Shown here piece after piece: positions 10,996-27,442 of a stretch of 64,000 nucleotides of DNA; position 1 is the stretch's first letter; each line of letters opens with the position of its first letter. The stretch spans positions 1 through 64,000 of the forward strand of contig NZ_UCNJ01000013.1 of the NCBI RefSeq assembly GCF_900473965.1. The letters run 5' to 3'. The position numbers and the translations under genes were made by a program. This DNA is from Synechococcus sp. UW179A. Its GTDB lineage: Bacteria; Cyanobacteriota; Cyanobacteriia; PCC-6307; Cyanobiaceae. Below the pieces are notes generated by a model that worked only from the letters and a program-made list of their open reading frames with translations, was not told the DNA's origin and ran no database searches.

Positions 10996-11141
10996 TTGGA
11001 AGCCATCAATCTCTTCAACGAATTATTGTTGCGAACACACCCAACCACTCACAAGCTGGCTGCTTGCACGAGCTCAGCCCAGGCCAGTGAATTCCAGTTG
11101 TGTGAGCTTTGCGAGAGTTCCCCTGCATCATTGAGGACGCA

Positions 11142-11375: not shown

Positions 11376-11404
11376 TCGCGGAAGCCTGAGCACGATTGCC
11401 GGCA

Positions 11405-11590
11405 TTAAACCGGATTGATCCGATGCGTATCGGGCAGATGTGAGACCTGAGCAGTGAGCATGCAGTCGACGATCCGGTGGATGTAGGCAGCCCGGCGCAT
11501 GTTTTCCATGGTTTGCCATTTAGCTTCGCCCATGGATTGGCGGGCGACTGCGATCGCGGCGAGTCCGGCGAGATTCTGAGCGCGGTCCAT
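11405..11590 (-). CDS. Small hypothetical protein, 61 aa
   Basis: ATG 11590 gives a helical protein (MDRAQNLAGLAAIAVARQSM, then WQTMENMRRAAYIHRIVDCM). TTG 11596 is an alternative start. Soluble, no motif recognised. Confidence 0.5.
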   Translation of the reverse strand: MDRAQNLAGLAAIAVARQSMGEAKWQTMENMRRAAYIHRIVDCMLTAQVSHLPDTHRINPV

Positions 11591-11633
11591 GGGCAAAGCC
11601 CTATTGACCAGGATCTAACCGGCTGGCTTTTCC

Positions 11634-11759
11634 ATGGCAATCCGCAGATCAGCGAACCCCATTAATCCGTACGAACAAGCTTGCGCATGCCCTGATGGCT
11701 GCGGAGATTCATGCCAATGCTTCAGATGCTGCAATCCATGGTCATTCCTCAAAAGTTGA
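11634..11759 (+). CDS. Possible Cys-rich 41-aa peptide
   Basis: ATG-initiated frame with seven cysteines at 17, 19, 23, 27, 29, 32 and 33 (CACPDGCGDSCQCFRCC) inside 17 residues. The CxC and CC spacing recalls metallothionein-like metal-binding peptides. No good ribosome site, and no paralogue in the window, so chance cannot be excluded. Confidence 0.4.
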   Translation: MAIRRSANPINPYEQACACPDGCGDSCQCFRCCNPWSFLKS

Positions 11760-11936
11760 CGTCCAAATGACGGCCAGAAAGCTGATCAGCCCATCAACAT
11801 CTGCGCTGAAAAAATCGGCCTCCGTGAGAACCGAAACGCCTTGCATGATCCAGTCTCCATCAACAAAATGAGACCCGGATAGAAAACTCAGGGATGAAGG
11901 AGTTAATCGTATATTTTGCGTCACTAATTTTAACCT

Positions 11937-12293
11937 TCAAAGCAAAAAATCAATTAGCCGAAATTTAAGCCGTTGAGATCGACAACGACAAAGACAACCT
12001 CCATGGATCCAGCTGAAAAGGCTGTAAGAGCAGATATGTATCTTTGGCGGAAAACTTGTTGCATCGGCGTGGAAGACCCGTGCGAATGGAGTTTGTGAAG
12101 CGAGCGCTTGCTGGATGAGATTCATTGCTTTGCATTTGTCTCCAAGCACTTTGCGAGGAGTTGGCCAACTCCCAGAGAGTCGACCAGGATCTGACATGGC
12201 GTTGTTGCCGGTGCTCGTCATCACCCTGATCAAGCCGATCAGCGCACCGGTGGGCGACAGCGCCTCCAGCCGACCTTCTGCATGTTTTGCCAA
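11937..12293 (-). CDS. Hypothetical protein, up to 118 aa
   Basis: ATG 12293, overlapping the 3' end of the DUF1651 gene. The N-terminal 90 residues look coding (ALSPTGALIGLIRVMTSTGN; AMNLIQQALASQTPFARVFH); the last part (CRCRSQRLKFRLIDFLL) may be read-through of a decayed end. No family recognised. Confidence 0.4.
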   Translation of the reverse strand: MAKHAEGRLEALSPTGALIGLIRVMTSTGNNAMSDPGRLSGSWPTPRKVLGDKCKAMNLIQQALASQTPFARVFHADATSFPPKIHICSYSLFSWIHGGCLCRCRSQRLKFRLIDFLL

Positions 12294-12535
12294 GCCTCGA
12301 TGGCATTTTGCTCGAGCATCCGTCTCTGGCTCTGAGGCTCCGGAGGATGGGGTCTCACCCAGCGATAGGTGCTAAGGACCACCCAGCGACCATGGGCGGT
12401 TGAGTGACCATTGCTGAACCTCACCAGCAGCTGCTCATCACCATTCACCAACCAGCCATCTCTGCCGGTCTGCAGCGGTGGTTCATGGGTGGTGTAATCC
12501 AGGTTTGGCATACGGGGAGTTTCGCCGTGATCCAT
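12239..12535 (-). CDS. DUF1651 family protein, 98 aa
   Basis: Matches the picocyanobacterial DUF1651 plan: GWLVNGDEQLLVRF near the front, a middle W/R-rich region, then RRMLEQNAIEAWQNMQKVGW and a PP near the end. A second member is at 48037-48264. Small soluble protein of unknown function, frequent in marine Synechococcus genomic islands. The N-terminal 25 residues are probably disordered. Confidence 0.75.
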   Translation of the reverse strand: MDHGETPRMPNLDYTTHEPPLQTGRDGWLVNGDEQLLVRFSNGHSTAHGRWVVLSTYRWVRPHPPEPQSQRRMLEQNAIEAWQNMQKVGWRRCRPPVR

Positions 12536-12603
12536 ATCAACGCGGGGCAGAGTTCACAGAACCTCACTCCAGACGCTGCTCTGAAACGGGTGGGCAGCGG
12601 TAA

Positions 12604-12708
12604 CTAGCCAATCAGCTGGGTCAACAGAGCTGCGGATCCCAGTCCCCCGAAAAACAGGGCTGTAGGCAGCATGGCTGGCCAGACCGATGGCTGAGTCGGA
12701 TCGGACAT
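12604..12708 (-). CDS. Possible 34-aa membrane peptide
   Basis: ATG 12708 with an AAGGGA ribosome site five bases upstream. A polar start (MSDPTQPSVWP) is followed by one hydrophobic helix (AMLPTALFFGGLGSAALLTQ). Typical of cyanobacterial mini membrane proteins, but unnamed. Confidence 0.45.
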   Translation of the reverse strand: MSDPTQPSVWPAMLPTALFFGGLGSAALLTQLIG

Positions 12709-12824
12709 CAGTTCCCTTCATCAATAACTCTGAGAAAATAAAAGGTTCTGCGATGACCTCGGGTGATGAGCTGATGGAGCGCAGGTCGTATTTGCTTGAC
12801 TGCCTGGTATCTGAGTGATTCACA

Positions 12825-12965
12825 AGCCAATCGCTTGGACGACTGAAGTGGAGATCTCCGCACCAGGAGCAGGCGGTTGTCCCCCTGGAAGTGCTGAAAG
12901 CATTGCTCGAGATTGAACTGGCGTCGGGTGACGCGACAACCAACGGCACGGATCCCCGCCGTTGA
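12825..12965 (+). pseudogene. Remnant of an unknown gene 3' end
   Basis: A plus frame with coding-like composition (WRSPHQEQAVVPLEVLKALL, then EIELASGD) ends in TGA at 12963-12965 and is followed at once by a terminator at 12972-12996, but no start codon is present. Probably the truncated tail of a lost gene. Confidence 0.35.
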
Positions 12966-12971
12966 TCAAGA

Positions 12972-12996
12972 GCCTCCCCTGAGACAGGAGGCTTTT
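12972..12996 (+). terminator. Rho-independent terminator
   Basis: GCCTCC/GGAGGC arms with a 9-base loop and four T. It lies inside the longest possible M28 frame and is the reason for choosing a downstream start for that gene. Confidence 0.7.
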
Positions 12997-13005
12997 CCTG
13001 CCTGG

Positions 13006-13869
13006 ATGTCTGCCTACCCGGCGAATCAGACTGAAGCAATGGCACTGCTGTCACTCGCCTGCCGCAAGGATCTGGAAGCCATCGCCATTCCCCGTCATGC
13101 CAGCTGGGATCCGGTGGGTCTGATGGCCGTGCGCAGTTATGTGCGCGAGCAGCTGGCCGCTCTCGGGAAGGTGGAGGAACAGCCGTTCAGGCGCAGCAGC
13201 CATCAGGGGGTGAATCTGATCCTGAAACTTCCCGGCCGCAACCCCGGGCGCCGGCCGCTGCTGGTGGGCGCCCATTACGACGGGCCCATCCAGTCGGTCG
13301 GAGCTGATGACAACGCCAGTGCAATGGCTGCTCTGCTGGAGCTGGGCAGACGCTGGAGCACGGCACCCCCGCGGCGACCCGTGTGGCTGGTGGCCTTCGA
13401 TCAGGAGGAATGGGGGCTGCTCGGCAGCTCAGCACTGGCCGACCGGCTCAAGGCAGATCGGCAACGACTCAAGCTGATGGTGAGTCTGGAAATGCTCGCC
13501 TACACCAGCAACACGCAGAGCTACCCCCACCCCGCCATGGGCAGGCTCTACGGCAACCGCGGCGACTTCATTGCCCTGGTTGCGAATGCCCGTGCTGGCC
13601 TGATGCTCTCTCGGCTCACCCATGCCATGGGGCAACACGTGAGAAGCAAAGCGCTGCCGGTGCCGCGCGCTGGAATCGATGTGCCCGCAGTCCGCCGCAG
13701 CGATCACAGCCCATTCTGGGATCGGGGGTACAACGCCCTGATGGTGACGGACACCTCCTTCATGCGGAACCCGCACTACCACCGGATGAGCGACACGATC
13801 GACACGCTCGATCTGCCCTTCCTGGCCTCAGTGATTGATGGACTAGAGCTGGCGCTGGGGAGACTGTGA
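13006..13869 (+). CDS. M28-family zinc metallopeptidase
   Basis: 287 aa from ATG 13006, chosen because the frame upstream crosses a terminator; ATG 13039 is an alternative. Zinc ligands and catalytic residues of M28 are in place: GAHYDG (His90), ADDNAS (Asp102), FDQEEWG (Glu134, Glu135), SLEML, and a C-terminal His in HYHRMSDT. Such enzymes are aminopeptidases or carboxypeptidases. No signal peptide is visible with this start. Two decayed pieces of a second copy lie at 15688-15800 and 17148-17281. Confidence 0.88.
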   Translation: MSAYPANQTEAMALLSLACRKDLEAIAIPRHASWDPVGLMAVRSYVREQLAALGKVEEQPFRRSSHQGVNLILKLPGRNPGRRPLLVGAHYDGPIQSVGADDNASAMAALLELGRRWSTAPPRRPVWLVAFDQEEWGLLGSSALADRLKADRQRLKLMVSLEMLAYTSNTQSYPHPAMGRLYGNRGDFIALVANARAGLMLSRLTHAMGQHVRSKALPVPRAGIDVPAVRRSDHSPFWDRGYNALMVTDTSFMRNPHYHRMSDTIDTLDLPFLASVIDGLELALGRL

Positions 13870-14270
13870 AGAATAGGAATGGAACTAGCTGAGTCAAGAG
13901 AGCCAAACCGCTTATTTAAACCAGGGAGTGCTACTTGTGAGAAGAATTAGATGATTGAGCAGATTGCACGCGAACAATTCAAACCAAGCAAATTTTTTTG
14001 TGACTAGCTTGCGGTTGCCGAACAAACCAATAAGATTTATACAAAACCCAACTCAAAATAATTGATTACCAGCCCCTAGGAAGCGAGTCAGCCTCAGAGA
14101 CCAAAAAGACCAATTAATTACCACCATTAACAATTAAGTTTCAACACTGAAAAGGGCTATTCCCCTTGACGAAGAAAACACTTAATACAAAGAACATCTC
14201 AATTCCAACAACTGGCGAAAGCGCCTAGCCCCGGCCACAGCAAAAAGAAAAAGAAACATTCATTAATGCT
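13870..14270. other. AT-rich intergenic, nothing recognised
   Basis: About 400 bases of AT-rich sequence between the M28 gene and the convergent PspC-type gene. No gene-like frame, repeat or clear terminator was seen. Confidence 0.4.
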
Positions 14271-15038
14271 CTATTCGCTTCGATTTATCAGCCTATCTTT
14301 TGCAGCAATGAACTCATCCTCTGAAAGGACTCCCTTACTACTAAGCGCTGCCAACTCTTGAAGCTCTGCCGCCAGGCCACCTCCTGAAAGCGAAGGCTTT
14401 TCGTGATACCTATCTATTTGCTCATCAATAAAGCGTCTGATAATATCGGCCTCATTATTTTTTTCAAGACCCGCAAACATAAAAGTATTCTCATCTTGAG
14501 CGGCAGCAAAAACACCTCCCCTAGACTCATTCCCACCCGGCAAAGTGAACTGTATAAATCCACTAAAAACGCTACCTGCTTCTCTGAACTGAATAGCAGT
14601 TACCGACCTAAACGGTATGGTTTTAGTACCACTTATTCCTTTGCTTAAAAACCCTAGAGCGCCTCTAGGCGTAATTGTAACTTTATCGGAAAAGACAACA
14701 AGATCCTCGCCTACTCCTTGAAGGAAAAACTTTGCCCCCGAGGGAAGCTCTACAGGCTTCTCAACAACAGGATTCAAACTACTGACAGAAGTATCCTGGC
14801 CTGAAATATTTCTCTCTTTTGACTTACTTGAGCGATTCAATCCCCTAGGAGCCTTCTCTTTCTGGGAACTTTTTACAGTGAAGGCCATGACCAAATAGGC
14901 AATCCAACCTACACCATAAAAAAAGCTAGTGACCACAAAAATGATTCGCCATACATTCGCCGATCCATATCCACTACTTTCAAGGCCAGAGCAGACTCCA
15001 GCAAAGACACTGTTTTTTCTTGACCTTGTGAGTGACAT
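14271..15038 (-). CDS. PspC-domain / DUF4429-like / SHOCT-domain protein
   Basis: 255 aa from ATG 15038; the longer frame to 15281 crosses a bidirectional terminator and is rejected. Residues about 1-50: PspC-type domain (SVFAGVCSGL, then a membrane helix VGWIAYLVMAF). After a polar linker, about 110-215: a PH-like DUF4429-type domain (GALGFLSKGISGTKTIPFRS). Last 40 residues: SHOCT oligomerisation motif (LSSKGVLSEDEFIAAKDRLI). Likely a membrane-anchored stress-sensing protein. Not linked to other phage-shock genes here. Confidence 0.8.
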   Translation of the reverse strand: MSLTRSRKNSVFAGVCSGLESSGYGSANVWRIIFVVTSFFYGVGWIAYLVMAFTVKSSQKEKAPRGLNRSSKSKERNISGQDTSVSSLNPVVEKPVELPSGAKFFLQGVGEDLVVFSDKVTITPRGALGFLSKGISGTKTIPFRSVTAIQFREAGSVFSGFIQFTLPGGNESRGGVFAAAQDENTFMFAGLEKNNEADIIRRFIDEQIDRYHEKPSLSGGGLAAELQELAALSSKGVLSEDEFIAAKDRLINRSE

Positions 15039-15085
15039 AAGACGAAAAGCCTCTTGGTTAATACTTACAATATTACAGCGACATA

Positions 15086-15117
15086 GAATAAAATCCCCCA
15101 AACGGGGGGTTTTATTC
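15086..15117. terminator. Bidirectional terminator
   Basis: Fourteen-base arms with one G-T pair: an A/T-rich base, then CCCCC/GGGGG around a 4-base loop, so that a T tract follows the stem on both strands. It separates the PspC-type gene from the secreted 90-aa gene. Confidence 0.8.
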
Positions 15118-15177
15118 TGCTTGATTCTGCAATCATCAATGCAAGGAGAACGCTTCTCCTTCGCTCGCCTCCAACCA

Positions 15178-15450
15178 ATGACCTTTTTCAGAATACTCTC
15201 ACCAGTTCTCATAATAAGCTCACTTTCCTTCTGCGTTGACAGCCGAATACCAGCGCGTGCGTTCTGGGTCGACGAATGCAAGATTATTCGCGAACAGCAT
15301 CAGCAGCATGCAAATGCCTCTTCTGCCATGGGAAGAGAAATGGATCGAATGATGGCTCGTGACGGATACTCAAGCTCTTACGCAGCTGACACAAGAGCCC
15401 TTAGCAACGCTATGTATAAATCAATACTCAGCGATAATGGATGCAAATAG
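15178..15450 (+). CDS. Small secreted hypothetical protein, 90 aa
   Basis: Signal peptide MTFFRILSPVLIISSLSF, with mature part starting near ARAFWVDECK. Mature region is helical and charged (EQHQQHANASSAMGREMDRM) and has two cysteines, one near each end. ATG 15139 would add 13 residues. Family unknown. Confidence 0.6.
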   Translation: MTFFRILSPVLIISSLSFCVDSRIPARAFWVDECKIIREQHQQHANASSAMGREMDRMMARDGYSSSYAADTRALSNAMYKSILSDNGCK

Positions 15451-15687
15451 AATGTTTATCAAGAAGCTTGCTTGGTTCATCAGCAAATAAAAGCATATTG
15501 GCAATTTTTAATTATAAACTGAAGACATATACACACCAGGATTCTCCATTTAGTGATTAATACAGGGAGTAATTGGAGCAGGTCTGCGGCGCAGAGAAGC
15601 AGAACAATATTCAGAAAATCATGACTACGAAATGCGATTTGAGGCGCTGACCCAACGGCACTATGCTCAGGCTGCTGTGCGAACTGA

Positions 15688-15800
15688 AGCTGGGATCCGG
15701 TGGGTCTGATGGCCGTGCGCAGTTAAGTGCGCCAACAGCTCGCCGCACTCGGGGATGTGGAGGAACACAGCTTCAGGCGCGGCAGCCATGAGGGCAGTGG
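15688..15800 (+). pseudogene. Decayed M28 peptidase fragment (N-terminal part)
   Basis: Closely similar to about 13102-13215 of the intact M28 gene (shared GCTGGGATCCGGTGGGTCTG and following bases), with TAT changed to an in-frame TAA and several substitutions. It is one half of a second copy whose other end is at 17148-17281. Confidence 0.8.
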
Positions 15801-15882
15801 CCATGGCAGTTAAGGAGGAATTCAAGCCATTGCATCCTCTAGCACGAATTCGTTCCAAAGATGCTGGGACTGATTGCTGTTA

Positions 15883-16071
15883 ATGGATCAAAAAAAGGCC
15901 CGGCATCCCGAAGCCATCACGCACCATATGATTCGAGCTGCAGTGGTCCTTTTCATCACGGCTGCTGCTGCCGTGACGTATTGGTCAGTGCGCAATCTGA
16001 AGAACGATATCTCGGTACCAACGACCGAACCAATGACTCAACAAGCTATGCCCCGGAACTCATCTCGCTGA
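15883..16071 (+). CDS. Small single-pass membrane protein, 62 aa
   Basis: ATG 15883 (TTG 15874 also open). Basic N-terminus, one helix (AAVVLFITAAAAVTYWSV), polar C-terminus. It sits inside the interval that separates the two M28 remnants. Function unknown. Confidence 0.45.
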   Translation: MDQKKARHPEAITHHMIRAAVVLFITAAAAVTYWSVRNLKNDISVPTTEPMTQQAMPRNSSR

Positions 16072-16156
16072 AGAGATTTCTTCGAATGATCGAAACCATT
16101 GTCTGCACATTGGACATCAGCAACTCGTTTGCGGAGGTTGCAGACAAATCCGATCA

Positions 16157-16285
16157 CGAGGAGGCATCTGGTCGATTGTTTTTTGGGGGCTGGCCTTGAT
16201 CTGGCAAGCCATTTCCTACAACCATCGACCAAAGCCGATTACCGAGGATGAGATCCAAAGCGAGATGAAGAAATTGGGTTCGTGA
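16157..16285 (+). pseudogene. Possible small membrane protein lacking a start codon
   Basis: A plus frame reads GGIWSIVFWGLALIWQAISY followed by a charged tail (KPITEDEIQSEMKKLGS) to TGA 16283-16285. The composition is convincingly protein-like, but no ATG, GTG or TTG precedes the hydrophobic part in frame, so the 5' end is lost or shifted. Confidence 0.4.
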
Positions 16286-16376
16286 TAGCTGTCGCAATCA
16301 ATCCAGTCGTCAGGCGTTGTGCCGATTGCCAACCGAATCGGACTGTCGCCCGAGCAGAGGCACCTGGATCTAGCCG

Positions 16377-16425
16377 CTGCCTTCCAGCACTCGGCGAGAC
16401 GGTCTCGCCGAGTGCTGGAAGGCAG
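16377..16425. repeat. Perfect 24-bp inverted repeat
   Basis: Arms 16377-16400 and 16402-16425 are perfect reverse complements with a single base between. It lies 10 bases past the stop of the minus-strand gene at 16436, as a terminator would, but has no T tract. Confidence 0.85.
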
Positions 16426-16435
16426 ATCTTTCGGA

Positions 16436-16993
16436 TCAGAACAGCTTGATCCTGATGGACGGTGCCGACGGCTTGGACTTTGTTTTCGGCTCAGCAGGAG
16501 TGCTGTCCGAATCGGAATCGCTCGAGCTGCCGTACGTTTCGCCATAACAATCAGTGATCACAGCCTGATTTCCTGCTCGCACATCACTGAAGCTCACATT
16601 CAGATTGATCACTGAAGGGTTCAACATCACGGCCTGAGTCGACAGCACTGCATAGTTGCCCGGCTGAGTGCCATCAACAACGGTTCCTTTTGGAGGTGCC
16701 CAGGTGGCTGAAAACGTTCCACGGGTGACATTGGTGCGAATCGGTTCTTCGCAGTAACCGGCTTTGGTGAGATCGGCGCGAATCCTGGCCAGCAGTGCTT
16801 CAAGGGTGGTGTTTTGATGACGGCTATTCAGCGCCAATTGCCCCAGCGGGTTGGCACTGAACATCATCTCGGCATTGGATCCCAGGCTGGGAGGAAGGCT
16901 TTTGAGCAGCTGTTTGACCGGCTCCGCTGAGACAGGAATGAAGCCTCCGCTCAAAGCGGCGAAGAGCGATAACGCTGCGATTCTGCGAATCAT
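16436..16993 (-). CDS. Secreted hypothetical protein, 185 aa
   Basis: Signal peptide MIRRIAALSLFAALSGGFIP with cleavage near VSA. Mature domain includes CEEPIRTNVTRGTFSATW and a conserved-looking beta-rich core with a single later cysteine (ITDCYGETYG), probably forming one disulfide. Tail is a Ser/Asp repeat then Lys-rich. Periplasmic or secreted; no family recognised. Confidence 0.7.
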   Translation of the reverse strand: MIRRIAALSLFAALSGGFIPVSAEPVKQLLKSLPPSLGSNAEMMFSANPLGQLALNSRHQNTTLEALLARIRADLTKAGYCEEPIRTNVTRGTFSATWAPPKGTVVDGTQPGNYAVLSTQAVMLNPSVINLNVSFSDVRAGNQAVITDCYGETYGSSSDSDSDSTPAEPKTKSKPSAPSIRIKLF

Positions 16994-17147
16994 GTGTCAA
17001 TCAACCTGTGATCAAAAATCTAGGGATCCACCACCTCGATCACGGCCCCTTAACTTCTCTTATCCAGCGGCATCAAGAACGGTTTCGCTCCATTGAGTGG
17101 CCGATCAAATGTGAACCGACGATGGCCCCTGCGTCTGCCCGCTCTGG

Positions 17148-17281
17148 ACCACAAAGCCCTGATGGTGACGGACATCTCCTTCATGCGAACTCCGCACGAC
17201 CACTGGAGGGGCGACACGATCGGCAGGCTGGTTCCATCCTTTCCGGCCTCAGTGATTGATGGAGTGGAGGTGGCGGCATGA
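17148..17281 (+). pseudogene. Decayed M28 peptidase fragment (C-terminal end)
   Basis: Matches the last about 130 bases of the intact M28 gene (shared CTGATGGTGACGGACA, then CCTCAGTGATTGATGGA) and keeps an open frame to TGA 17279-17281. The His-containing motif has become PHDHWRGDT. Its stop overlaps the ATG of the next gene. Confidence 0.8.
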
Positions 17282-18198
17282 GCTATAGATCATCAAGAAC
17301 GCCGAAATCGTGTTTTGTGGATTCCGCTGAATTGAAAGGGTATTTTTCCAAACGTGTCAGCCTGAGCAGTGCTGATTTAGCGGCTATGGCGCAATTATTT
17401 GCGCAATTGTATGGAGAGTTTCAAACCGAAATCGTCCATAGAGTTTGCTGCACTGATGCGATCGATCGGCCATACATATGGGTTGATCCGCTGGAGGGTC
17501 GCAGCTCACATGTGATTTTGTTTTTTCATGGTGGTGGATACACGATGGGAAGCTCGAAAGATCACATGCAGCTGATTGCATCTCTCGTTGAACTGTCTGG
17601 AAAGACATTTTTAGCGGTTGATTACCGGCTTTTCCCTGCAGTCACTTTTCCCGCTCCTCTTGACGATGCTGAAGCCTCTTACCGCTGGCTGCTTGAGCAA
17701 GGATTACCAGCATCCCGCATTGGTCTGGCGGGCATCTCAGCGGGCGCTGCCCTGGTGACGCAGCTGGTGCATCGTTGCGCAAAGAAGTCTCTGGGATGCC
17801 CTGCTGTGGCCATGGTGATGTCGGGCCTGCACGATTTTCGCTTTGATCGCCCATCAATGGCTTTCAATTCCTGCCTGGACCTTGTCTCCCTGAACAGACT
17901 GGAGTCGATCGTTGAATTCTATTTCCCTGATCAATCATCATTCGAATCTGATGATGTGCTTTGCATCAATCAAAATTACAACCACTATCCGAAAACATTA
18001 TTTCAAGTTGGTGATCAGGAAATATTGTTGAGCGACGCCATTGAGATGCATCAATCCTTGAGATCACAAGGTCATGATGTGCATTTAAACGTTGTTCCAA
18101 AAATGATTCATTGTGGCCAGATGTTTGCTCGCGACTATCCGCCCGGACAGTCAGCTCTCGAGCAGGCGGCAGGCTTCATCAAAAGTGCATCGGAGTAA
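17278..18198 (+). CDS. Alpha/beta hydrolase, hormone-sensitive-lipase type
   Basis: 306 aa. Oxyanion motif HGGG at 84-87, nucleophile elbow GISAG with Ser154, and a C-terminal His278 (KMIHCGQM) define a family IV esterase/lipase. DYRLFPAVTFPAPLDDA between them is typical of the family. Cytoplasmic (no signal peptide). ATG 17278 overlaps the stop of the M28 remnant (ATGA), so its expression may once have been coupled to that gene. Substrate unknown; short acyl esters are likely. Confidence 0.88.
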   Translation: MSYRSSRTPKSCFVDSAELKGYFSKRVSLSSADLAAMAQLFAQLYGEFQTEIVHRVCCTDAIDRPYIWVDPLEGRSSHVILFFHGGGYTMGSSKDHMQLIASLVELSGKTFLAVDYRLFPAVTFPAPLDDAEASYRWLLEQGLPASRIGLAGISAGAALVTQLVHRCAKKSLGCPAVAMVMSGLHDFRFDRPSMAFNSCLDLVSLNRLESIVEFYFPDQSSFESDDVLCINQNYNHYPKTLFQVGDQEILLSDAIEMHQSLRSQGHDVHLNVVPKMIHCGQMFARDYPPGQSALEQAAGFIKSASE

Positions 18199-18387
18199 TG
18201 CTCGATCCTGATCAAAAGGCGCGCGCGAAGCGCAACGCAAACGACACCAGAGCGGCAATCAGGTCAGCAGTAACACCAAAAAGATCCGGATGGAGGCTCA
18301 AGATCATGACGCGATTGATCTATGAAGGGTGGTCGCACGACGACGGGCCCGGAGGCAACAGCCAGACGGCCGGGCAGGTCGTCATCT
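18199..18387. repeat. Direct repeat copy 1 (about 185 bp)
   Basis: High similarity to 20656-20840 in the same orientation, with a 4-base indel and scattered substitutions. Each copy follows a hydrolase gene. On the minus strand it carries a 31-aa hydrophobic ORF. Confidence 0.85.
18212..18307 (-). CDS. Putative 31-aa hydrophobic peptide in repeat copy 1
   Basis: ATG 18307 to TGA 18212-18214 encodes MILSLHPDLFGVTADLIAAL continuing to VSFALRFARAF: a polar start, one hydrophobic helix and a basic end. Copy 2 retains most of the peptide but loses its stop through a 4-base deletion. Size and layout resemble type I toxin or other small membrane peptides, without a specific family match. Confidence 0.4.
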   Translation of the reverse strand: MILSLHPDLFGVTADLIAALVSFALRFARAF

Positions 18388-18755
18388 CCACGGCTGGAAC
18401 GCAGCCGTATCAACCAAGGCATTCGACCAGTCCATCAGCGCGAACCTGATGCTGTGCAGAAGCAGACTCACCGCTTCAGGTCAAGCTCAAGTGAGGTGTT
18501 CTGCTCACGGGCGAGGATCTCTGGACAAGCAGATCACTACAGCCTCTAACCACCATCGACAACCTTGCTGATCAGATCCTTTGATCTCCGCCGAGAGCAA
18601 ATCAGCTAATGAAGAGATCAAAGAGGAATCAAACTGATCCAGCCTGGACCTGAGAACTTCGAGAAGTCATATGACCACTTCATTAACGAGCCGCTGTCAT
18701 GAATAACACTTTGAGTAGAGTTGTGAAAGCAATATTCCCGCCTTAATCATTAGCC
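18388..18755. other. Intergenic, nothing recognised
   Basis: Short frames only. The last about 80 bases are AT-rich and probably contain the promoter of the amidase gene. Confidence 0.3.
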
Positions 18756-20534
18756 ATGGGTCATTCCACGGGATCGAAGATATTCAACCAGGCCACATGG
18801 CTTGCACTGACTCTCAGCACAGCCTGTCTTCTGACTGAGAAGTCGGTGGCAAACCCGATCGAAAGCGGCAACTATCCGATCGAGGAGTCCACCATTGAAT
18901 CCATCCACACCGCCATTCAAGAGGGAGTAATTGATTGCGAGCAATTAATTGAGAGCTACTTGAATCGGATCAAGAAATATAATTTCAGCCTTACAAGAGG
19001 AGCTCCTCTAAACGCATTTGTTGCACTGAATCCGAATGCAGTCAGACAGGCAAAGGCTCTTGATAGGCGCTTCCAACAAAACAATGAATTGACGGGCTTT
19101 CTTCATTGCATCCCGATTGCCGTCAAAGACAACATTGATACCGTTGACACTCCTTCCACATCCGGATCGCTGGCTTTACTTGGCTCTCAGCCAGTCAGCA
19201 ATGCTTTTCTGGTGAATCAATTAAGAGCCGCTGGTGGCATCATTATTGGCAAAGCCGCCATGGATGAATTCGCTTCGGGTGGGGAGGGAATCAGTGGCCG
19301 TAGTGGAAGAATCGGCAATGCTTATGACCCCAATCAAAACTCCGGTGGCTCAAGTGGAGGATCTGCAGTTGCGGTGAGTGCGAACTTTGCAGTACTGGGG
19401 ATCGGCACGGACAACAGCGGCTCGGTGAGAGTACCTGCAGTCTTCAACGGCGTTTACGCGATTCGACCAAGCACGGGGCTGATCAGTCATTCAGGGATTC
19501 TGCCGAGAGGCAACCGGGATGGAGTGGCAGGCGTGATGGCCAGGTCCATTCCTGACCTTGCTGCAGGCCTTGCTGCGATAGCCAACAGCTCTGATCCAGA
19601 TGATGATTTAACGACATCAGTACCGCGCAAAGATTCCTATGCCAAGCATTTAAAAAATGCCTCACTTGATGGAAAACGAATAGGCGTCATTCGCAGCGTT
19701 GCAGGCAATGCAGTTTTTGACACCAACGACAAGCCTTCAGTGGCTGTATTCAATCAGGTCAAGGCCCGACTCAAGAGTCAGGGTGCATCTCTGGTTGAGA
19801 TCGACCTGCCCTTGTTCGACTCGAACAGAGCTAACAACATGGCGGGCGAGGCGGAAGAAGTTAACCAATACCTGAGCTCTTTTGCATCAACCAGAAAGAG
19901 TTATCAGGACATATGCTCATCAGGCCGTACACGGCTGAGCGAGAAAACCTGCTTTGGACACATTGAAAGTCTTGCTCCCAAGTACAGCGAGCAATACGCT
20001 GCTGCGTTAAACACTTTTGAGAAGAACAAAAACTATCTGGAAGGGTTGATGAGAAAAGATAACGTTGATGCCTTACTGATGCCTCTCAGCTCCTGGCAGC
20101 CACCCAGCTATTACGATGATATGTATCGCACAGCTACAACGGAATCGCCTGTTGCATCGAACTCCGGATTGCCGGCCATTGCCTTGATTGCCGGTTGGAC
20201 ACCAGCAACTCCAGCGATGCCGATCGGTTTTGAATTGATTGGTTTTCAATATGGAGAGGGTGATCTGATCGGCCTCGCGCAGGCCTATTCCTCCGGACTT
20301 CCTGGCAGGCCTTTACCTGAATTGAAAGCAGGCAACGGTGACTTTTCCTTCGAGGAAATATGTGTTCAGGGAATCAATAACTTCATCACTGAGGCTGGCT
20401 GGCGCAGTTATCAGCAGTTCCTCAAGAATGGTGATGGTGAGACGATTCGGCCAGCTGCTTATCAGAGGTTTTTTAAGCAGCAAACACAACAATTCGCCCA
20501 AGACAATCAACAGTCTGTCCAGGCTTGTCAGTGA
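18756..20534 (+). CDS. Secreted amidase (amidase-signature family)
   Basis: 592 aa with an N-terminal signal peptide (WLALTLSTACLLTEKSVA). The Ser-cisSer-Lys triad is seen at Lys124 (IAVKDN), Ser199 (GGSSGG) and Ser223 (DNSGSVRVPA); the spacings 75 and 24 are those of GatA-type enzymes. The export signal and added C-terminal region (FEEICVQGINNF, then QQTQQFAQDNQQ) show it is not GatA but a periplasmic amide hydrolase. Substrate unknown. Stands alone, flanked by the two copies of the 185-bp repeat. Confidence 0.9.
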   Translation: MGHSTGSKIFNQATWLALTLSTACLLTEKSVANPIESGNYPIEESTIESIHTAIQEGVIDCEQLIESYLNRIKKYNFSLTRGAPLNAFVALNPNAVRQAKALDRRFQQNNELTGFLHCIPIAVKDNIDTVDTPSTSGSLALLGSQPVSNAFLVNQLRAAGGIIIGKAAMDEFASGGEGISGRSGRIGNAYDPNQNSGGSSGGSAVAVSANFAVLGIGTDNSGSVRVPAVFNGVYAIRPSTGLISHSGILPRGNRDGVAGVMARSIPDLAAGLAAIANSSDPDDDLTTSVPRKDSYAKHLKNASLDGKRIGVIRSVAGNAVFDTNDKPSVAVFNQVKARLKSQGASLVEIDLPLFDSNRANNMAGEAEEVNQYLSSFASTRKSYQDICSSGRTRLSEKTCFGHIESLAPKYSEQYAAALNTFEKNKNYLEGLMRKDNVDALLMPLSSWQPPSYYDDMYRTATTESPVASNSGLPAIALIAGWTPATPAMPIGFELIGFQYGEGDLIGLAQAYSSGLPGRPLPELKAGNGDFSFEEICVQGINNFITEAGWRSYQQFLKNGDGETIRPAAYQRFFKQQTQQFAQDNQQSVQACQ

Positions 20535-20655
20535 CGGCACTGCTGATCCAAGTTGTCCCTGCCGCAGGACCCCTTACCGGAAGATCTCAACTTGATGCAT
20601 TGGGCTGGCGGGCCTGTCATCACTGCAATGGTTGGACCTGGAAGCCATCGCAGTG

Positions 20656-20840
20656 ATGCTGGATCCTGATCAAAAGGCGCGCAGCGCAACGCAAACGACA
20701 CCAGAGCGGCAATCAGGTCAGCAGTAACACCAAAGAGATCCGGATGGAAGCTCAAGATCATCTCGCGGTTGATCTGTGAGGGGTGATCTCACGACGACGG
20801 GCCTGGAGGCAACAGCCAGAAGGCCGGGCACGTCGTTATG
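20656..20840. repeat. Direct repeat copy 2 (about 185 bp)
   Basis: Same orientation as 18199-18387. On the minus strand the 31-aa peptide frame begins at ATG 20761 (MILSFHPDLFGVTADLIAAL) and then runs on because of a 4-base deletion near 20682. Confidence 0.85.
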
Positions 20841-21239
20841 TGCGGGACTCGCATGGAACCGGGTCAGCTGGAGGCCTAAACAACTCACCAGAGAAGACCA
20901 AGAACAAGTTGGAACCATCAACAAGCACTGCAAAAGTGTTTGACAAAAAGCAAACACACCAAGTCCTCCCTGCGGGCTTTCAATCTTCATTGCAGCCATA
21001 CTCAGAGCTCTGGTGCTGTGATGCATATCTGGAGTAGTGCCGATACAGCAGCAACTCCGAACTACCGATCAGGCTGATGTCTCCTTTCCATCAAACAAGT
21101 TCGTGAGCAGTTGCCAATTCTCCATTCCGTTGCCACCAAGGGTGAGTGGGAAGCGCTCTTGGTGGGGCGCCCACGTCATGAGGACGGAGGCGGCTTAGGT
21201 CGCCCCCCTCTTGATGCAATCAATTTGCGATTTCCAGCC
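20841..21239. other. Intergenic, nothing firm
   Basis: A minus frame to 21026 (SPQGGLGVFAFCQTLLQCLL) and a plus frame from 21111 are open, but neither has a ribosome site or coding-like composition throughout. Confidence 0.3.
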
Positions 21240-21407
21240 TCAGGCGGCCTTGCTCTGCTCAGACTCCTCTGCTTCTGCTTCGGCGCGCAGGAAACGTTTA
21301 CGCTGAGCTGATTCATAGCCAGACAGTTCAACCCGTTTCTTCTCGATTGGTTTGCGATTGGGCTTATCCAAACCCATCAGCAGGGGATGAATTCCTCTTC
21401 GGCTCAT
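21240..21407 (-). CDS. Small basic conserved-type hypothetical, 55 aa
   Basis: ATG 21407 chosen (MSRRGIHPLLMGLDKPNRKP); the frame extends to 21458 but the extra residues are low complexity. Strongly basic first half, acidic Ala/Glu-rich end. Probably soluble; nucleic-acid or ribosome contact is possible from charge only. Confidence 0.6.
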   Translation of the reverse strand: MSRRGIHPLLMGLDKPNRKPIEKKRVELSGYESAQRKRFLRAEAEAEESEQSKAA

Positions 21408-21696
21408 TGAATTTGTCCGTTTATTTGGATTTCGCGTCCTGGTCGGATGACCATCCACGTGAAGAAATAATGCCGCCCCCCAATCAGCAATGCGGTGTGA
21501 TTGGAGACAAATGAAACTAATCTTCGATCACTTTGGAGTGATTGATCTCCAGTCGCAAAACCTCTTTGAGCTGACACTTTCACCCACTTAAAACATCTTC
21601 AGCCGTTTTGACATCCAATCACGGGCTTGATGAGCTGCTCCAACAACAGTCTTGGGTGGTTGTCGCAGTCAGACTGCCCCCAACCGCACCGCAACG

Positions 21697-22203
21697 ATGC
21701 TGACTGAGCTGGCCACCAGCCTGATCGCCATGGCGGTTCCGACAACCATGGGCACTTGCCCTCAGGGAGTGATCGAACAGCTCGATGGGCTCTACCGCTG
21801 GCAGGTGCAGCGTATGGACAGCAACGAAGACCGGGTCAAAGCGCTCTCCAGCCAGCGCCAGCGTTTCACACCATCACTGTTCAGGTTGCTGATAGAGGCA
21901 AGACAGCTCACACCCTCAAGCGATGGTCGCTTCCTCGATTTCGATGTGTTCAGCAACACTCAGGTTGCCACCTTCGGAGCCAAGGTCAGCGGCTGCAGTG
22001 CAGAAAACGGAAACAGCATCCAGGCAAGGGTGGATGTGGAGGCCGGCCTCACCGGCAGACCCAGCGGAACCCCACGCCGGCTGCTGTATGAGATGAACCA
22101 GGACGGCGCAGGCAGCTGGCGCATCAACAACATCACCTATCTCGATGGGAAGGTCTTTCAGCTGAGGAGCTTTCTGCAGGAGCTGGTGCATCCAACGCAC
22201 TGA
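21697..22203 (+). CDS. Secreted DUF3828-like protein, 168 aa
   Basis: ATG 21697 chosen, giving a short export-like N-terminus (MLTELATSLIAMAVPTTMG). The body, with YRWQVQRMDSNEDRVKALSS, a middle DFDVFSNTQ and the end WRINNITYLDGKVFQLRSFL, resembles DUF3828-type small periplasmic domains. It ends 41 bases before ggt on the same strand, so cotranscription is likely. Confidence 0.6.
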   Translation: MLTELATSLIAMAVPTTMGTCPQGVIEQLDGLYRWQVQRMDSNEDRVKALSSQRQRFTPSLFRLLIEARQLTPSSDGRFLDFDVFSNTQVATFGAKVSGCSAENGNSIQARVDVEAGLTGRPSGTPRRLLYEMNQDGAGSWRINNITYLDGKVFQLRSFLQELVHPTH

Positions 22204-22244
22204 ACCACACCCCCACGCAGACGCTCAGCAACGGCCAAGCTGAT

Positions 22245-24041
22245 GTGCAAAGCCAACGTCGCCGCTTGCCTAGCCCTGTTCCACTACTCAGAGCTCTGCT
22301 ACTGATGCTTAGTGCCAGCAGCCTTGCGGCAGCTGCAGCAGCACCGGTCAGCCGTGACGATCCGGAATCCGCCGACCCAGACCGCAAGCCCATCTCCACA
22401 GCCGCTGGCTCTGCGGTTGTCGTCACCGCCAATCCACTGGCCAGTGCGTCGGCACTGAGCGCCCTCAAAAACGGCGGCACAGCCGCGGATGCTCTGGTCA
22501 CAGCTCAGGCTGTACTGGCCGTCGTTGAACCACAGAGCTCTGGCCTCGCCGGTGGTGGATTCCTTCTCTACTGGGATGGACAGCACCAAACCTTGGAGGT
22601 GCTAGATGGTCGCGAGGTCGCTCCCGAACGTAGCCGTCCTGGAGACCTGCTGACGCCAACCGGACAACCCATGCCTTGGCGAGACGCCACGGCCAGGCTC
22701 AATGCAATCGGCATCCCCGGAACAGTGGCGCTGCTCTGGGACGTGCATCAACAGTTCGGGCGCCTGAGCTGGGCAAGCACGCTGCAACCGGCGATCAAGC
22801 TGGCCAGGGATGGCTTCAGCCCAAGCCCGCGACTGCTGCGCTCCATCAGCCTGGCCCAGCGCATCGGAGTGAGTCACAGCAAAGCGTTTCAGGAGCTTTA
22901 TCTACCCGGCGGCAAGCCACCGCCTGCTGATCAGCCCTTCCGCAATCCTGCCCTGGCACGCACTCTGGTGTCACTGGCGCATGACGGCGGACCTGATTTC
23001 TATCGAGGCGCTTTAGCCCAGCAGATATTGAGGGAGATGGCCACGCTGCAAGCCAGCGAAGCTGAATTCCGCGGCTGGAGTGACACCGATCTAGCCACTT
23101 ATTCCGTGCCGCGTCGCCAACCGCTTTGCAGCGAGCAACTGAAGCACCAAATCTGCACCATGCCACCACCGAGCAGCGGCGGCGTGGGCATGTTGCAGAC
23201 CCTGGCCCTGCTGAGCCAGGCCACGGATCTGCCCGGATCCAGCGCCGCTGATCCACAGACCTGGCGGCAACTGGCCAAAGCCCAGACCTGGGCGGATGCC
23301 GACCGCCTCTATTGGGTGCATGACCCGACCGATGGGGGTGTTCCCGCCGCGGCCTTGCTCGATCCGACCTACATCAAGACCCGCGCCGAATCCATGCAAG
23401 CCACACCCGCAGTCCAACCCAAACCGGGGCTACCAGCAGGACTTAATCACTATCCCTACGGCCGCCCAGACAAGGGCCGCGAACAGGGCACCACCCAGGT
23501 CACGATCGTTGACGGGTTTGGCAACATCGCCAGCTACACCTCGTCGGTGGAGACGGTGTTCGGCAGTCGGCACCTGGTGGCCGGCATGGTGATGAACAAT
23601 CAGCTCACCGATTTCGCTTTTGAGCCACTGGTTGACGGACTATCGGTAGCTAACCGCCGCCTGCCGGGCCGGCGGCCGATGTCGTCGATGGCACCGACAC
23701 TGGTGTTCAAGAACGACCAGCCGGTACTAGCACTCGGCAGCCCCGGCGGTCGCAGCATTCCCCATCTGCTCAGCCGGGTGCTGCTCTCCTCACTGATCTG
23801 GAGGGAACCACCACAGCGGGCCGTGGGGCTTCCCCATCTCTCCAGCCGCGGCCGCACGCTGGTGCTGGAGCAAGATCCACCGCTGTCCTGGCCGCTGCCA
23901 CCCGACCAGCTCCAGAGCGAAGCCACAGACATACGCCGTCAACGCGTCGGCAGCGGCACTGCCCTGGTGCAGAGGATCAACGGCCGCTGGCATGGGGCAG
24001 CGGACCCCCGCCGGGAAGGCACATCCCTGGCGCTGCCTTAA
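22245..24041 (+). CDS. ggt: Gamma-glutamyltranspeptidase
   Basis: 598 aa, GTG start, signal peptide (LLRALLLMLSASSLAAAAAA). The precursor is expected to self-cleave before the nucleophile Thr416 in GTTQVTIVDGFGN, where canonical TTH is TTQ, giving large and small subunits. The binding-site motif GSPGGRSIPHLL and LVAGMVMNNQLTDF also fit. Periplasmic enzyme hydrolysing glutathione and other gamma-glutamyl compounds, probably for amino-acid salvage. Alternative start ATG inside the signal region is less likely. Confidence 0.92.
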   Translation: MQSQRRRLPSPVPLLRALLLMLSASSLAAAAAAPVSRDDPESADPDRKPISTAAGSAVVVTANPLASASALSALKNGGTAADALVTAQAVLAVVEPQSSGLAGGGFLLYWDGQHQTLEVLDGREVAPERSRPGDLLTPTGQPMPWRDATARLNAIGIPGTVALLWDVHQQFGRLSWASTLQPAIKLARDGFSPSPRLLRSISLAQRIGVSHSKAFQELYLPGGKPPPADQPFRNPALARTLVSLAHDGGPDFYRGALAQQILREMATLQASEAEFRGWSDTDLATYSVPRRQPLCSEQLKHQICTMPPPSSGGVGMLQTLALLSQATDLPGSSAADPQTWRQLAKAQTWADADRLYWVHDPTDGGVPAAALLDPTYIKTRAESMQATPAVQPKPGLPAGLNHYPYGRPDKGREQGTTQVTIVDGFGNIASYTSSVETVFGSRHLVAGMVMNNQLTDFAFEPLVDGLSVANRRLPGRRPMSSMAPTLVFKNDQPVLALGSPGGRSIPHLLSRVLLSSLIWREPPQRAVGLPHLSSRGRTLVLEQDPPLSWPLPPDQLQSEATDIRRQRVGSGTALVQRINGRWHGAADPRREGTSLALP

Positions 24042-24456
24042 ACCACCTCTTAATCAGAAAGTCGGTTGCCGTGAACTTCTGCCCTCCACGGCAAATGCAG
24101 CCCTGGACCTCGCCGGCGTCGAATCCCCGCAGCGATGAAGACTTGCTGGCCTTGCGGATAGCGCCATAGTTGCAGCGTTTCACCTGCACGCTGTCACAGC
24201 TGCGCAAGGCCTGAGACAGCGGCGGCTATTCGGCCAAGGCCCCGGGCTCAGTTGAATCCGCGCCGCCAGCAAGCTCCCCGGCAGGATCTGTTGAAACCAC
24301 TGCACTGGCCGAGCGAGGGATACAAACGGTGCTACTACCCACAGTGATGTAACCAGAATCCAGGGCGCACCTGCCTGGGTCCGTATGAGGACGCCATTGA
24401 GCCTGGGCCGGAAGTATGGAAGTCGCGGCCAGAACGGCCAACAGGTACCGAGCCAT
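23977..24456 (-). pseudogene. Secreted protein interrupted by an in-frame TAG
   Basis: From ATG 24456: signal peptide MARYLLAVLAATSILPAQA, then a short mature part with two cysteines to TAG 24226-24228 (76 aa). The same frame continues with coding-like sequence (VQVKRCNYGAIRKASKSSSL, then GCICRGGQKF) before running antisense into ggt. Either a nonsense mutation truncated a larger Cys-containing secreted protein, or the 76-aa form is the real product. Confidence 0.55.
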
Positions 24457-24661
24457 GCATGACAGGACAGGGGACTTTTCTATGTGTGCATCTCTGCATT
24501 TGTGATGTCAAGGACTCTCAGCAACACCTCACCACGCGTTCAACCAGTCTTCAAACCCGGCAGGTCGAGGCTCTGATCTGGGTTCAAGCCAGTGAGCCAG
24601 ACCACTAACTGCGAAACACCAGCTGCCTCGCTAGAAGATTTCGTGACTGCTGCTCCATGCC

Positions 24662-27391
24662 ATGAGCTCCCGTGCTTGGTCCGATGCATACGTCACAGCC
24701 GATGGAAGCGATCTGAATGCCGAGGCACTGCTTGAGGCCTTTCAATCCAGCAGCGGTCTTGGCGACCTGAGCGACGACGAGACCGACATCGTCCTCTCCG
24801 CCATGGCAGCGACGCTGTGGTCCTATCCACTGAATGAAACCCATCGGTTTTACAACCTCGACACGGTTGCCCAGGCACCAGCCAATGAGCTGTTCAAGCC
24901 AGCATTTGCTGCCAGCTGGCTGAACAAGAATTCAGCGCCAGCTCCGAATGCCTCGGTGCTCTACATGACCGCCTGGCTGGACCTGAGCCAGCTGAGTGAC
25001 AGCGATCATGGAGAGCAGGTGTTGCATCTGCCTGCGAACCCGGATGATCACTACTACGTGCTCGCTGTTCTCGACAGCTACATCAACACAGTTGGTTCGT
25101 TTGGGACAAGAGATCCCATCGACGGTGATTCCAAGACCCCCCAATTGATCCTTCTGGCAGGCCCTGACAGCCCCTATTACGACCAGGCCGGCTCAACGGT
25201 GGAGATCACCGATGACACAGGGAATCAAACCAGCATGCATGTGCTCCAGGTGGACACCTCGCGAGGATGGATCACAGCGCGGATCAACACCAACACTCTG
25301 GATGCAGAGACGATGGAGGCAACCCGTTCCTTCATCAATGGCAGCGAGAATGGGGCCAGAAAGGGCTTTCAACTCACCTCACTGAGCGACTTCAAGACCA
25401 GTGGAACGGTGCCTTACGCATCGCCGATCACCGAATCCTCCTCCGGTGACGATGTGGATGCAGCAAGTCGCAGATGGGGGGACATTCCGAAGTCCGCCTT
25501 CAGATTCTTCGAGCAGGTCGATCAGGCACTGACGCTGAATCCTGTGCCATCCGAACTGGATGCTCAGACCAGCACCACACCCGCGTCGTATCAGATCTGG
25601 GTCGACAACCAGAACGTCAACCAGGATGCTGTCGACAGCAGACGCTCCTACCAGCCACCCTCCGCTCTCGGCGCTGAGAAGCAGGCCGCACTGAACAGGC
25701 GCTTTGCCGCAATTGGCCTCAACCTCAGCACAGGGTTCACCAAACCCAGCTGGTCCGCCAGGGACGAAGTGATCTTCGAAGCGTCCTACCAGGCCGCCCT
25801 GGAGCTGCTTCGTGCGGCCACAACAGAACTTGTGAGAGGCGAGAAAGACACCAACAACGGTTGGAACATCACCAACGACAACATCGGTGTCTACCCCAAC
25901 GACTGGAGTTCATGGCTGGTTCGAGCCGGCACTGCTGTGGATGGTGGTGCCGCCAACATTCCCAATGACGCGGTGTATCCCACCACTGAAATTGATCAGC
26001 ACGGTGAATCACTGACAAGCACCTACACCTACAGAATCACCATCCCATCATTCCGGCCGGAATCAGAAAATCCTGTTGAAAGCAATGGACCGGCGCAGGG
26101 GTTCTGGGCTTACACGATTTATCAGCCGAATCCCGGCAATGCCTACCAGCCGTTTCTGATCGAAAACGCCATCAGCAACACGACCTATTCGCCGATCAGT
26201 GCCACCGCCACGCTCACAGTCGACGGCAAACTCAAGACAAGCACACCCGGCAACTGGAATTCAGGCACAGCCGAGGGCACAGCCTTGATCACAGACTCAG
26301 AGATCGACGTTGAGGGCTTGGATCCCGACACCATCTACTACGTGAAATCAGCGGAGTATCTGGATGACGGCAGCAATCTGCTGCTCACCTTGTCGTCCGA
26401 CTACGAGCCTGAGTTCAGCAGGCGCGGCATCCCCATCGGCGGAGGCGGCTCGGCCGGGGATCCGACCAATATCACCGGCTCAACAGGCAGCTCCATCGGC
26501 TTCGGCTGGATCAATCCTGTGGCTCAGCTCGGCTCCAATCAGCAACAAGGGATCAGCAGCTCTGACACCACGCTGCAGGCGCAAAGCGATGGTTCAATCC
26601 GCCTGCATCTCTCCAGCCTTGAACCGCAGAGCGACCCACAGAACTGGCTGCCCACACCGCTGGCCATTGGCTCAGGGTCATCCGATCCAAAAGAAGCCAG
26701 CAAATTCCAGGTGATGGCGCGTTACTACTGGCCCACGAGCGATGGACAGTCGATTCTCAACAAATCCGCCCCTGAGCTGTACCTGCCGCCGAAGGTGGAA
26801 CGCCTGGGGCTGAACCGGCTCGAAACCTGGAGTCTCCTGAGCGACTCCGCTGAAGAACGGGTGAAAGCCGAAGATGCCGCATTCGGATCCACCACCCCCC
26901 TCCACATCACATCGCCGTTCAACGGCGATGTCGTTGGAGCCCTGATCGACCTCAGCATCCTGCCCCAGGCCCTCAACGGCCAGACCGCAACGGTGAATTA
27001 CAGCTACTCCCAAGACAGCGACGACGACAACAGGCTCTTCTTCTATGCCATCGACGACCTCACCGGCAGCATTGACGGTGTCCTGCCCGATGACAGCAGC
27101 TACCTGGACAAGGCTTGGGAGAGGCGGATGAACCCCGAGTCTCCGATTGAAACGAGCATCGGTTCGATCCAGGAAGGGGACATCCAGCTGAAGGCCGGTC
27201 AGCTCTACGCCCCGATCGTGCTCAACGGTGAAGGGTTGATGTTCACGGCATTCGACAGCGCCAACGCCAACGGCTACCGACATTTCGATCTGCTCAGCGG
27301 CAGCAGCTTCGCCTTTGAGGATCAGCTCTACGGCAGCAGTGAACACGACCGCAACGACGGCTTGTTCTCGATTCATTCGATTGACCTTTAA
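24662..27391 (+). CDS. Large DUF1254/DUF1214 protein with DUF4114-like C-terminus
   Basis: 909 aa, ATG 24662, no classical signal peptide. About 70-230: DUF1254-type domain (YMTAWLDLSQL, LPANPDDHYYVLAVLD, TVGSFGTR). About 400-520: DUF1214-type domain (NDWSSWLVRAG, YPTTEIDQHG, FWAYTIYQPNP). The last 100 residues (AGQLYAPIVLNGEGLMFTAF, then FAFEDQLYGSSEHDRNDGLF) match the DUF4114-like end of the 52093-54018 product. The family is linked to cell-surface or secreted proteins; leaderless export (type I) is an inference. The acidic, Asp/Ser-rich composition suggests calcium-dependent stability. Confidence 0.8.
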   Translation: MSSRAWSDAYVTADGSDLNAEALLEAFQSSSGLGDLSDDETDIVLSAMAATLWSYPLNETHRFYNLDTVAQAPANELFKPAFAASWLNKNSAPAPNASVLYMTAWLDLSQLSDSDHGEQVLHLPANPDDHYYVLAVLDSYINTVGSFGTRDPIDGDSKTPQLILLAGPDSPYYDQAGSTVEITDDTGNQTSMHVLQVDTSRGWITARINTNTLDAETMEATRSFINGSENGARKGFQLTSLSDFKTSGTVPYASPITESSSGDDVDAASRRWGDIPKSAFRFFEQVDQALTLNPVPSELDAQTSTTPASYQIWVDNQNVNQDAVDSRRSYQPPSALGAEKQAALNRRFAAIGLNLSTGFTKPSWSARDEVIFEASYQAALELLRAATTELVRGEKDTNNGWNITNDNIGVYPNDWSSWLVRAGTAVDGGAANIPNDAVYPTTEIDQHGESLTSTYTYRITIPSFRPESENPVESNGPAQGFWAYTIYQPNPGNAYQPFLIENAISNTTYSPISATATLTVDGKLKTSTPGNWNSGTAEGTALITDSEIDVEGLDPDTIYYVKSAEYLDDGSNLLLTLSSDYEPEFSRRGIPIGGGGSAGDPTNITGSTGSSIGFGWINPVAQLGSNQQQGISSSDTTLQAQSDGSIRLHLSSLEPQSDPQNWLPTPLAIGSGSSDPKEASKFQVMARYYWPTSDGQSILNKSAPELYLPPKVERLGLNRLETWSLLSDSAEERVKAEDAAFGSTTPLHITSPFNGDVVGALIDLSILPQALNGQTATVNYSYSQDSDDDNRLFFYAIDDLTGSIDGVLPDDSSYLDKAWERRMNPESPIETSIGSIQEGDIQLKAGQLYAPIVLNGEGLMFTAFDSANANGYRHFDLLSGSSFAFEDQLYGSSEHDRNDGLFSIHSIDL

Positions 27392-27442
27392 GCCAAAGCG
27401 CCACCTCCGTTCGTCTTGACGATGGCAGAATCGGTCTGGGAC

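Follow-up and report, generated by a model that had tools for sequence, protein, structure and literature searches.

The window analysed here, a stretch of 64,000 nucleotides, belongs to a draft genome (G000; 3.06 Mb in 35 contigs) and contains an amidase gene that is framed by two direct copies of one repeat. A gene for an alpha/beta-hydrolase, which we call the esterase, precedes the first copy, and both copies run antisense to the esterase and amidase genes (Table 1). Within-window comparison aligned the two copies over 198 columns with 89.9% identity (E 2.65e-71). The initial annotation had already recognised the repeat and its position on either side of the amidase gene, and both observations hold. 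The limits that it gave (18199-18387 and 20656-20840) fall short by about ten bases on the esterase side, where the 11 terminal bases of the esterase gene are common to both copies with 9 of 11 identical. A whole-genome DNA search with copy 1 as the query returned just two copies, both in the window, and a covariance model of the wider repeat family (R1, see below) likewise found just these two in G000. The genome is a draft, yet both copies lie in one contig and are 10% apart.

Table 1 Features of the amidase locus, with positions given in window coordinates
Feature	Position	Strand	Details
Alpha/beta-hydrolase (esterase) gene	17278-18198	+	Directly before copy 1; Pfam PF07859, E 3.5e-38
Repeat copy 1	18188-18385	-	Unit runs 5'-3' on the minus strand; takes in the last 11 bases of the esterase gene
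Repeat copy 1, covariance-model match	18227-18389	-	133 bits; itself among the 14 model-building units
31-aa open frame MILSLHPDLFGVTADLIAALVSFALRFARAF	18212-18307	-	Stop included; present in copy 1; most likely no gene
Conserved imperfect hairpin of copy 1	18338-18384	-	Outer stem TGACGA..TCGTCG, inner stem CCCGG..CCGGG
Block of 2.26 kb between the direct copies	18386-20645	+	Missing in relative G017
Stretch common to window and G019 amidase locus	18564-20559	+	78% identity
Amidase gene	18756-20534	+	592 aa; Pfam PF01425, E 1.6e-78
Repeat copy 2	20646-20839	-	Orientation as copy 1
Repeat copy 2, covariance-model match	20681-20843	-	121.5 bits; itself a model member

Several other features were seen ahead of this locus. 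A 49-base palindrome (16377-16425), 98% self-complementary, lies inside overlapping frames, and an Rfam match to mir-61, far below its cut-off, falls on it. Two further pairs of direct repeats stand in the same order, 13102-13208 with 15688-15794 (88%) and 13730-13854 with 17151-17275 (83%). The region from 15.7 to 17.3 kb has the look of a decayed second copy of a gene at about 13.1-13.9 kb.

The repeat carries a 31-aa hydrophobic frame on its minus strand, which had been described as intact in copy 1, with a 4-base deletion in copy 2, and had been proposed to encode a type I toxin or a small membrane regulator. The frame does exist in copy 1, where it would specify a hydrophobic helix with a basic end, and both window copies start with ATG. 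Its coding potential was assessed in an alignment of 14 units, comprising the two window copies, the orthologous G017 copy and 11 further units; a fifteenth row (window position 32833), a chance match of the core pattern, was left out. Minority letters amounted to 78, 73 and 81 at the three codon positions (27 columns each), with no excess at the third position of the frame among the 14 units, and the other offsets were equally flat. A stop follows after five codons in 5 of the 14 units, while in unit L037 a stop lies close to where the aligned stretch ends. Only the two window copies open the frame with ATG, the remaining units having GTG (9), TTG (2) or GAG (1). The changes between the copies had been called mostly silent or conservative, a statement whose basis is a small number of sites: a comparison of the two window copies with the G017 copy has 4, 1 and 2 variable sites by codon position.

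The 4-base difference between the window copies also reads otherwise than first described. The four bases are present in copy 1 alone and are absent from copy 2, from the G017 copy, which resembles copy 2 at this place, and from the other 11 units as aligned. The difference is therefore an insertion in copy 1 and not a deletion in copy 2. Since the end of the 31-aa form arises from this insertion, the supposedly intact copy is the odd one; the frame of copy 2 runs on to 77 aa (20528-20761), and the corresponding frame of the G017 copy lies within an open frame of 91 aa. A conserved short hydrophobic peptide frame, as expected of a type I toxin, was not found among the 14 units, a result that the initial annotation had itself named as part of what would speak against the peptide. 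When window positions 10000-30000 were searched with Rfam for an antitoxin RNA, the sole match to such an RNA was ohsC, sub-threshold at 28.7 against a cut-off of 50 bits (E 0.95) and located at 15085-15175, outside the repeat. For all its hydrophobic helix and the ATG of both window copies, a toxin or membrane regulator with early stops, flat codon positions, an unconserved start and a 31-aa form that exists only through an insertion strikes us as highly improbable. Judged from the aligned units, the frame is most likely no gene and the repeat non-coding, which removes one doubtful small-protein gene from the annotation. An origin of the frame as the tail of chrA was tried because the G019 amidase adjoins the end of a chrA remnant, and was rejected: among the matches listed between copy 1 and the chrA loci, no DNA match had E below 0.52 and no translated match had E below 0.095.

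Weak BLAST matches to a core of 39-52 bases, present in 5 of 60 genomes with the own genome counted, led to a wider repeat family. The covariance model R1, built from the 14 aligned units, detected 25 units, the 14 model members included, in 6 of the 31 genomes of the genus, namely G000 (2 units), G017 (7), G011 (3), G003 (6), G016 (5) and G002 (2). The search for further copies that the initial annotation had proposed yielded, within G000, none beyond the two of the window, and outside G000 the related units of the other genomes just named. Among 300 genomes drawn from the family and searched under stricter filters, G000, G011 and G017 alone gave a match; G002, G003 and G016 may not have been part of this draw. 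The exact hairpin pattern was found in five stretches, in contigs of Synechococcus sp. AG-673-A03, AG-679-A04 and AG-673-F03, by a search that may omit records close to the genome of the window. These three correspond to G002, G016 and G003, respectively, and we take them to be marine single-cell genomes. Their assemblies are fragmented and may contain chimeras, while G011 and G017 are single contigs. Among the genomes searched, the repeat family is bound to one small group of marine Synechococcus-like genomes.

Units of the family are about 165-190 bases long, intergenic and often tandem. Fifteen of the 25 stand in tandem at a spacing of 186-201 bases, as a unit u1 with a divergent unit u2, and such units adjoin with a common joint, TTCAATC. 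Four arrays sit behind a gene that we take to be hli-like, on the same strand. A tRNA origin of the joint was dismissed, there being no tRNA in 12 loci. A phage origin was likewise not borne out, as neither of two queries matched in a phage collection and the exact hairpin pattern had no match in IMG/VR contigs. Around the arrays of relatives, three further observations were made. In G017 an array and about 1 kb beside it are present twice at 96% identity (L033:8459-9784 and L034:4733-6059). Many short open frames that start like MSEEQLKAFLEKVKGD occur near the arrays of L033, L034 and L036, and presumably resemble Nif11-like leader peptides. A psbA-like gene (Photo_RC) adjoins one array.

The fold of the unit was examined in copy 1 and across the family. 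The 58-base stretch with the hairpin folds at -27.4 kcal/mol, with 3 of 200 shuffles as good, and 87.4% of the hairpin cells in the family are paired. Tested against shuffles across the family, the hairpin displayed no covariation beyond that of the shuffles. A larger fold of 27 pairs had 26 double changes against 10.3 in shuffles, counted on an alignment that had been fitted to the fold, and when the 25 units were folded anew to a consensus the result was -1.09 kcal/mol, which is almost nothing. For the whole of copy 1, shuffles were as good in 22 of 200 cases on the minus strand and in 5 of 200 on the plus strand. Rfam gave no match above the gathering score over 12 loci, and over the repeat in the window no match even at E 1. 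With no covariation in the hairpin, a near-empty fresh fold and an unexceptional whole-copy fold, an RNA structure is not established. These results bear on the proposal that the unit represents either a gene for a structured RNA or an element that ends transcription and has been copied to places behind genes. The highly paired hairpin, the double changes of the 27-pair fold and the position of four arrays behind an hli-like gene of like strand would all suit such an element, but the folding results just given do not, and the orientation to the neighbouring gene varies, the units behind the esterase and the amidase being antisense. We consider this proposal quite unlikely.

Comparison with relatives was then informative for the amidase locus itself. 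G017 keeps the locus, with an esterase protein that is 98% identical, followed by one unit, and the amidase was not found in this genome at E 1e-40. The expectation that a strain lacking the amidase would have one copy of the repeat is thereby confirmed in the one relative that keeps the locus. Its DNA (L032) matches that of the window to 18384 and then again from 21108. The 150 bases past the G017 unit, compared with the flank after copy 1, gave a best score below that of the best shuffle; a 29-base stretch within them is like the copy 2 flank and in the right order, and ties the best of 50 shuffles. Without clear kinship to either flank in G000, these 150 bases do not make a clean empty site. 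Pairwise identities among the two window copies and the G017 copy are 90, 92 and 93%; each of the three has 7 private differences, and two columns differ in all three. Insertion in G000 and loss in G017 are not separable from this star pattern. The G017 unit was also considered as a hybrid of copies 1 and 2. Private differences fall into four runs (shuffle P 0.025), but mostly in the order opposite to that of a simple deletion, and make no firm case for a hybrid.

The amidase gene is rare. It was detected in 2 of the 31 genus genomes, G000 and G019 (E 1e-40, own genome counted), and in 6 of 300 family genomes (E 1e-100, own genome counted), four of which belong to one other genus. The four loci of the other genus have no flank in common with the window; no direct repeats were found within 600 bases of them at E 0.5, and within 3000 bases there were 13-base matches only, at two of the four. 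In G019 the amidase protein is 80% identical; its gene sits where a chrA remnant ends, in a locus that is unrelated and lacks this repeat. Apart from the common stretch listed in Table 1, the remainder of the 17-kb G019 locus had no match to the window at E 1e-3. Copies of the chrA end lie on both sides of this amidase, 31 bases at 87% identity (L083:7145-7175 and 9289-9319), and a further 37 chrA-end bases at 86% are not in line with the 31-base copy. In G000 and G019, then, direct copies of local sequence enclose the amidase, the two places being unrelated, and only in G000 are these copies the present repeat. A plasmid origin of the amidase was rejected, since the 1140 plasmid records with a match were all below 60% identity and the best among the matches listed had 35%. 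Two observations concern the amidase and its leading flank elsewhere. Positions 18571-18688, before the amidase gene, have a 73% match in G011 (L113), which extends into a small open frame as far as its first codons; no amidase was found in G011. An amidase homologue in G170 (C1:112190-113416; L107) matches over residues 1-411 with two TAG codons inside, and is probably a decaying copy.

Gene blocks between units were also observed at other loci. At the locus of the hli-like gene, the u1-u2 array is unbroken in G017, G016 and G003, and is split in G011 by a 5.5-kb block, each side of which carries the same 109 bases of the unit. On contig C42 of G003, a 2.8-kb block splits an array that is unbroken in G017, here with 126 bases of the unit repeated to either side. 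Despite their different loci, the two blocks share two homologous stretches, of 2.1 kb (78% identity) and 0.9 kb (87%), lengths that take in the units. Four proteins were searched as a sample of the G011 block; one is AbrB-like by Pfam, and two had no match in NCBIfam. No Pfam recombinase was found among eight proteins scanned, these four included. In G002 an array is reduced to one unit and is about 185 bases shorter, which is plain loss.

The units that border the G011 block differ in type. The left unit is 84-88% identical to five units of the type found at other loci and 73-79% identical to three of the resident type. The right unit is 80-82% identical to three resident-type units and 75-83% identical to the five others, ranges that overlap, so that identity alone does not type it. 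At the 31 columns that separate the types, the left unit has the other type at 23, the resident type at 5 and neither at 3, while the right unit has them at 6, 19 and 6, respectively. Over the whole alignment, in which some of the columns lie outside the unit, the left array counts 34 other, 10 resident and 3 neither of 47 columns, and the right array 7, 22 and 7 of 36. The neighbouring u1 of G011 is 84-87% identical to resident u1 and 77-84% identical to four u1 of other loci, but is of the other type at 11 of 16 separating columns, and so belongs clearly to neither type. Because one bordering unit has the subtype of another locus, the G011 block probably arrived together with its own repeat unit. 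Unlike the units of the G011 block, both units flanking the amidase share one local subtype.

Enterobacterial ERIC and REP/BIME elements are intergenic, imperfectly palindromic, dispersed and limited to related genomes. The present repeat, non-coding and found at multiple loci, is likewise intergenic, imperfectly palindromic, dispersed and restricted to one group, a likeness by description and not by sequence. It differs from these elements in having 2-7 matching units per genome, in the tandem arrangement of 15 of its 25 units and in the gene blocks between units. A MITE-like or REP/ERIC-like element might have inserted twice beside the amidase, leaving an arrangement that is coincidental, and the imperfect palindrome, the intergenic position, the dispersal and the few copies per genome are what such an element would provide. 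However, the last 11 bases of the esterase gene occur in both copies, though possibly as part of the element, and this makes a copied locus likelier than two fresh insertions; tandem units, moreover, adjoin with a common joint. The repeats listed for the window include no inverted pair at the copy ends, and the duplicated stretches at the split loci are 109-198 bases of the unit itself. We hold two such insertions to be unlikely. Integron gene cassettes offer a second likeness, as they are blocks bordered by direct copies of an imperfect palindrome (attC), and here too direct copies of an imperfect palindrome border gene blocks. A motif scan for an attC site, however, found GTTRRRY in 2 of the 25 units, at two different columns, and RYYYAAC in 0 of 25, and no integrase was present among the four G011-block proteins tested. 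That the arrays are dedicated exchange ports of a lineage-bound cassette system, integron-like without attC and with a putative specific recombination enzyme acting on the palindrome, appears very improbable.

A different history would place the amidase between two old copies in the common ancestor, with G017 having lost it by recombination and the repeat having aided no entry. The near-equal distances among the three copies and their equal numbers of private differences look as if the duplication were as old as the split, and collapse of an array to one unit is known from G002. Gain is favoured, on the other hand, by the scarcity of the amidase in the genus and by its unrelated locations in G000, G019 and another genus. 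After a simple deletion the G017 unit should also be copy-1-like on the esterase side and copy-2-like on the far side, whereas the private differences are mainly in the opposite order, a weak point against deletion. We regard this history as somewhat improbable.

The reading that we prefer, with a probability of roughly 0.6, is that the repeat units act as portable homology for the gain and loss of gene blocks by recombination. Three loci each have a block that is enclosed by direct units in one genome and absent from at least one relative, and the sequences suggest that such repeats are sites where gene blocks are swapped in and out. Like units at several loci would provide homology for ordinary homologous recombination, and a block with units at its ends could recombine into, or be deleted from, a resident unit or array. 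Presence of the block would then leave direct copies on either side, and its absence one unit or array. The amidase, within the 2.26 kb between its copies, would be one such block. That host homologous recombination (RecA) is the agent is inferred, as is whether the amidase locus saw gain or loss. The proposal in the initial annotation that the amidase was inserted by way of the repeat agrees in outline with the G017 locus and with the two similar blocks elsewhere, although the data at the amidase do not tell an insertion in this lineage from a loss in G017. A weak point of portable homology is that one relative, G017, decides the amidase case, and does so with no clean empty site and with a star of three copies. 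The fragmented assemblies of G003, G016 and G002 count against it because chimeras are possible, as do the single local subtype of the amidase-flanking units, the right unit of the G011 block, which whole-unit identity does not clearly show to be resident, and the G019 amidase at its unrelated locus without the repeat.

Exchange through common flanks has a precedent in Prochlorococcus, where nitrate genes are described as gained and lost by homologous recombination in flanking core regions (PMC6370341). Blocks in both cases would come and go through recombination of common flanks; the Prochlorococcus flanks are core genes and the place is mostly fixed, whereas the homology here is a repeat present at several loci, so that blocks can change place. 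Among the titles and abstracts found in the open-licence literature, no such repeat is described in marine Synechococcus, and a term search of the main text of a 2008 genome paper (PMC2441476) returned no words beginning with 'repeat'.

Gene exchange is frequent among marine picocyanobacteria, and it is poorly understood how blocks that lack mobility genes come to their places. A recognisable repeat that marks the two ends of such exchanged blocks, in one group and at several of its loci, would make this process testable: the sites at which blocks enter could be predicted, and it could be asked whether recombination between repeats is sufficient.
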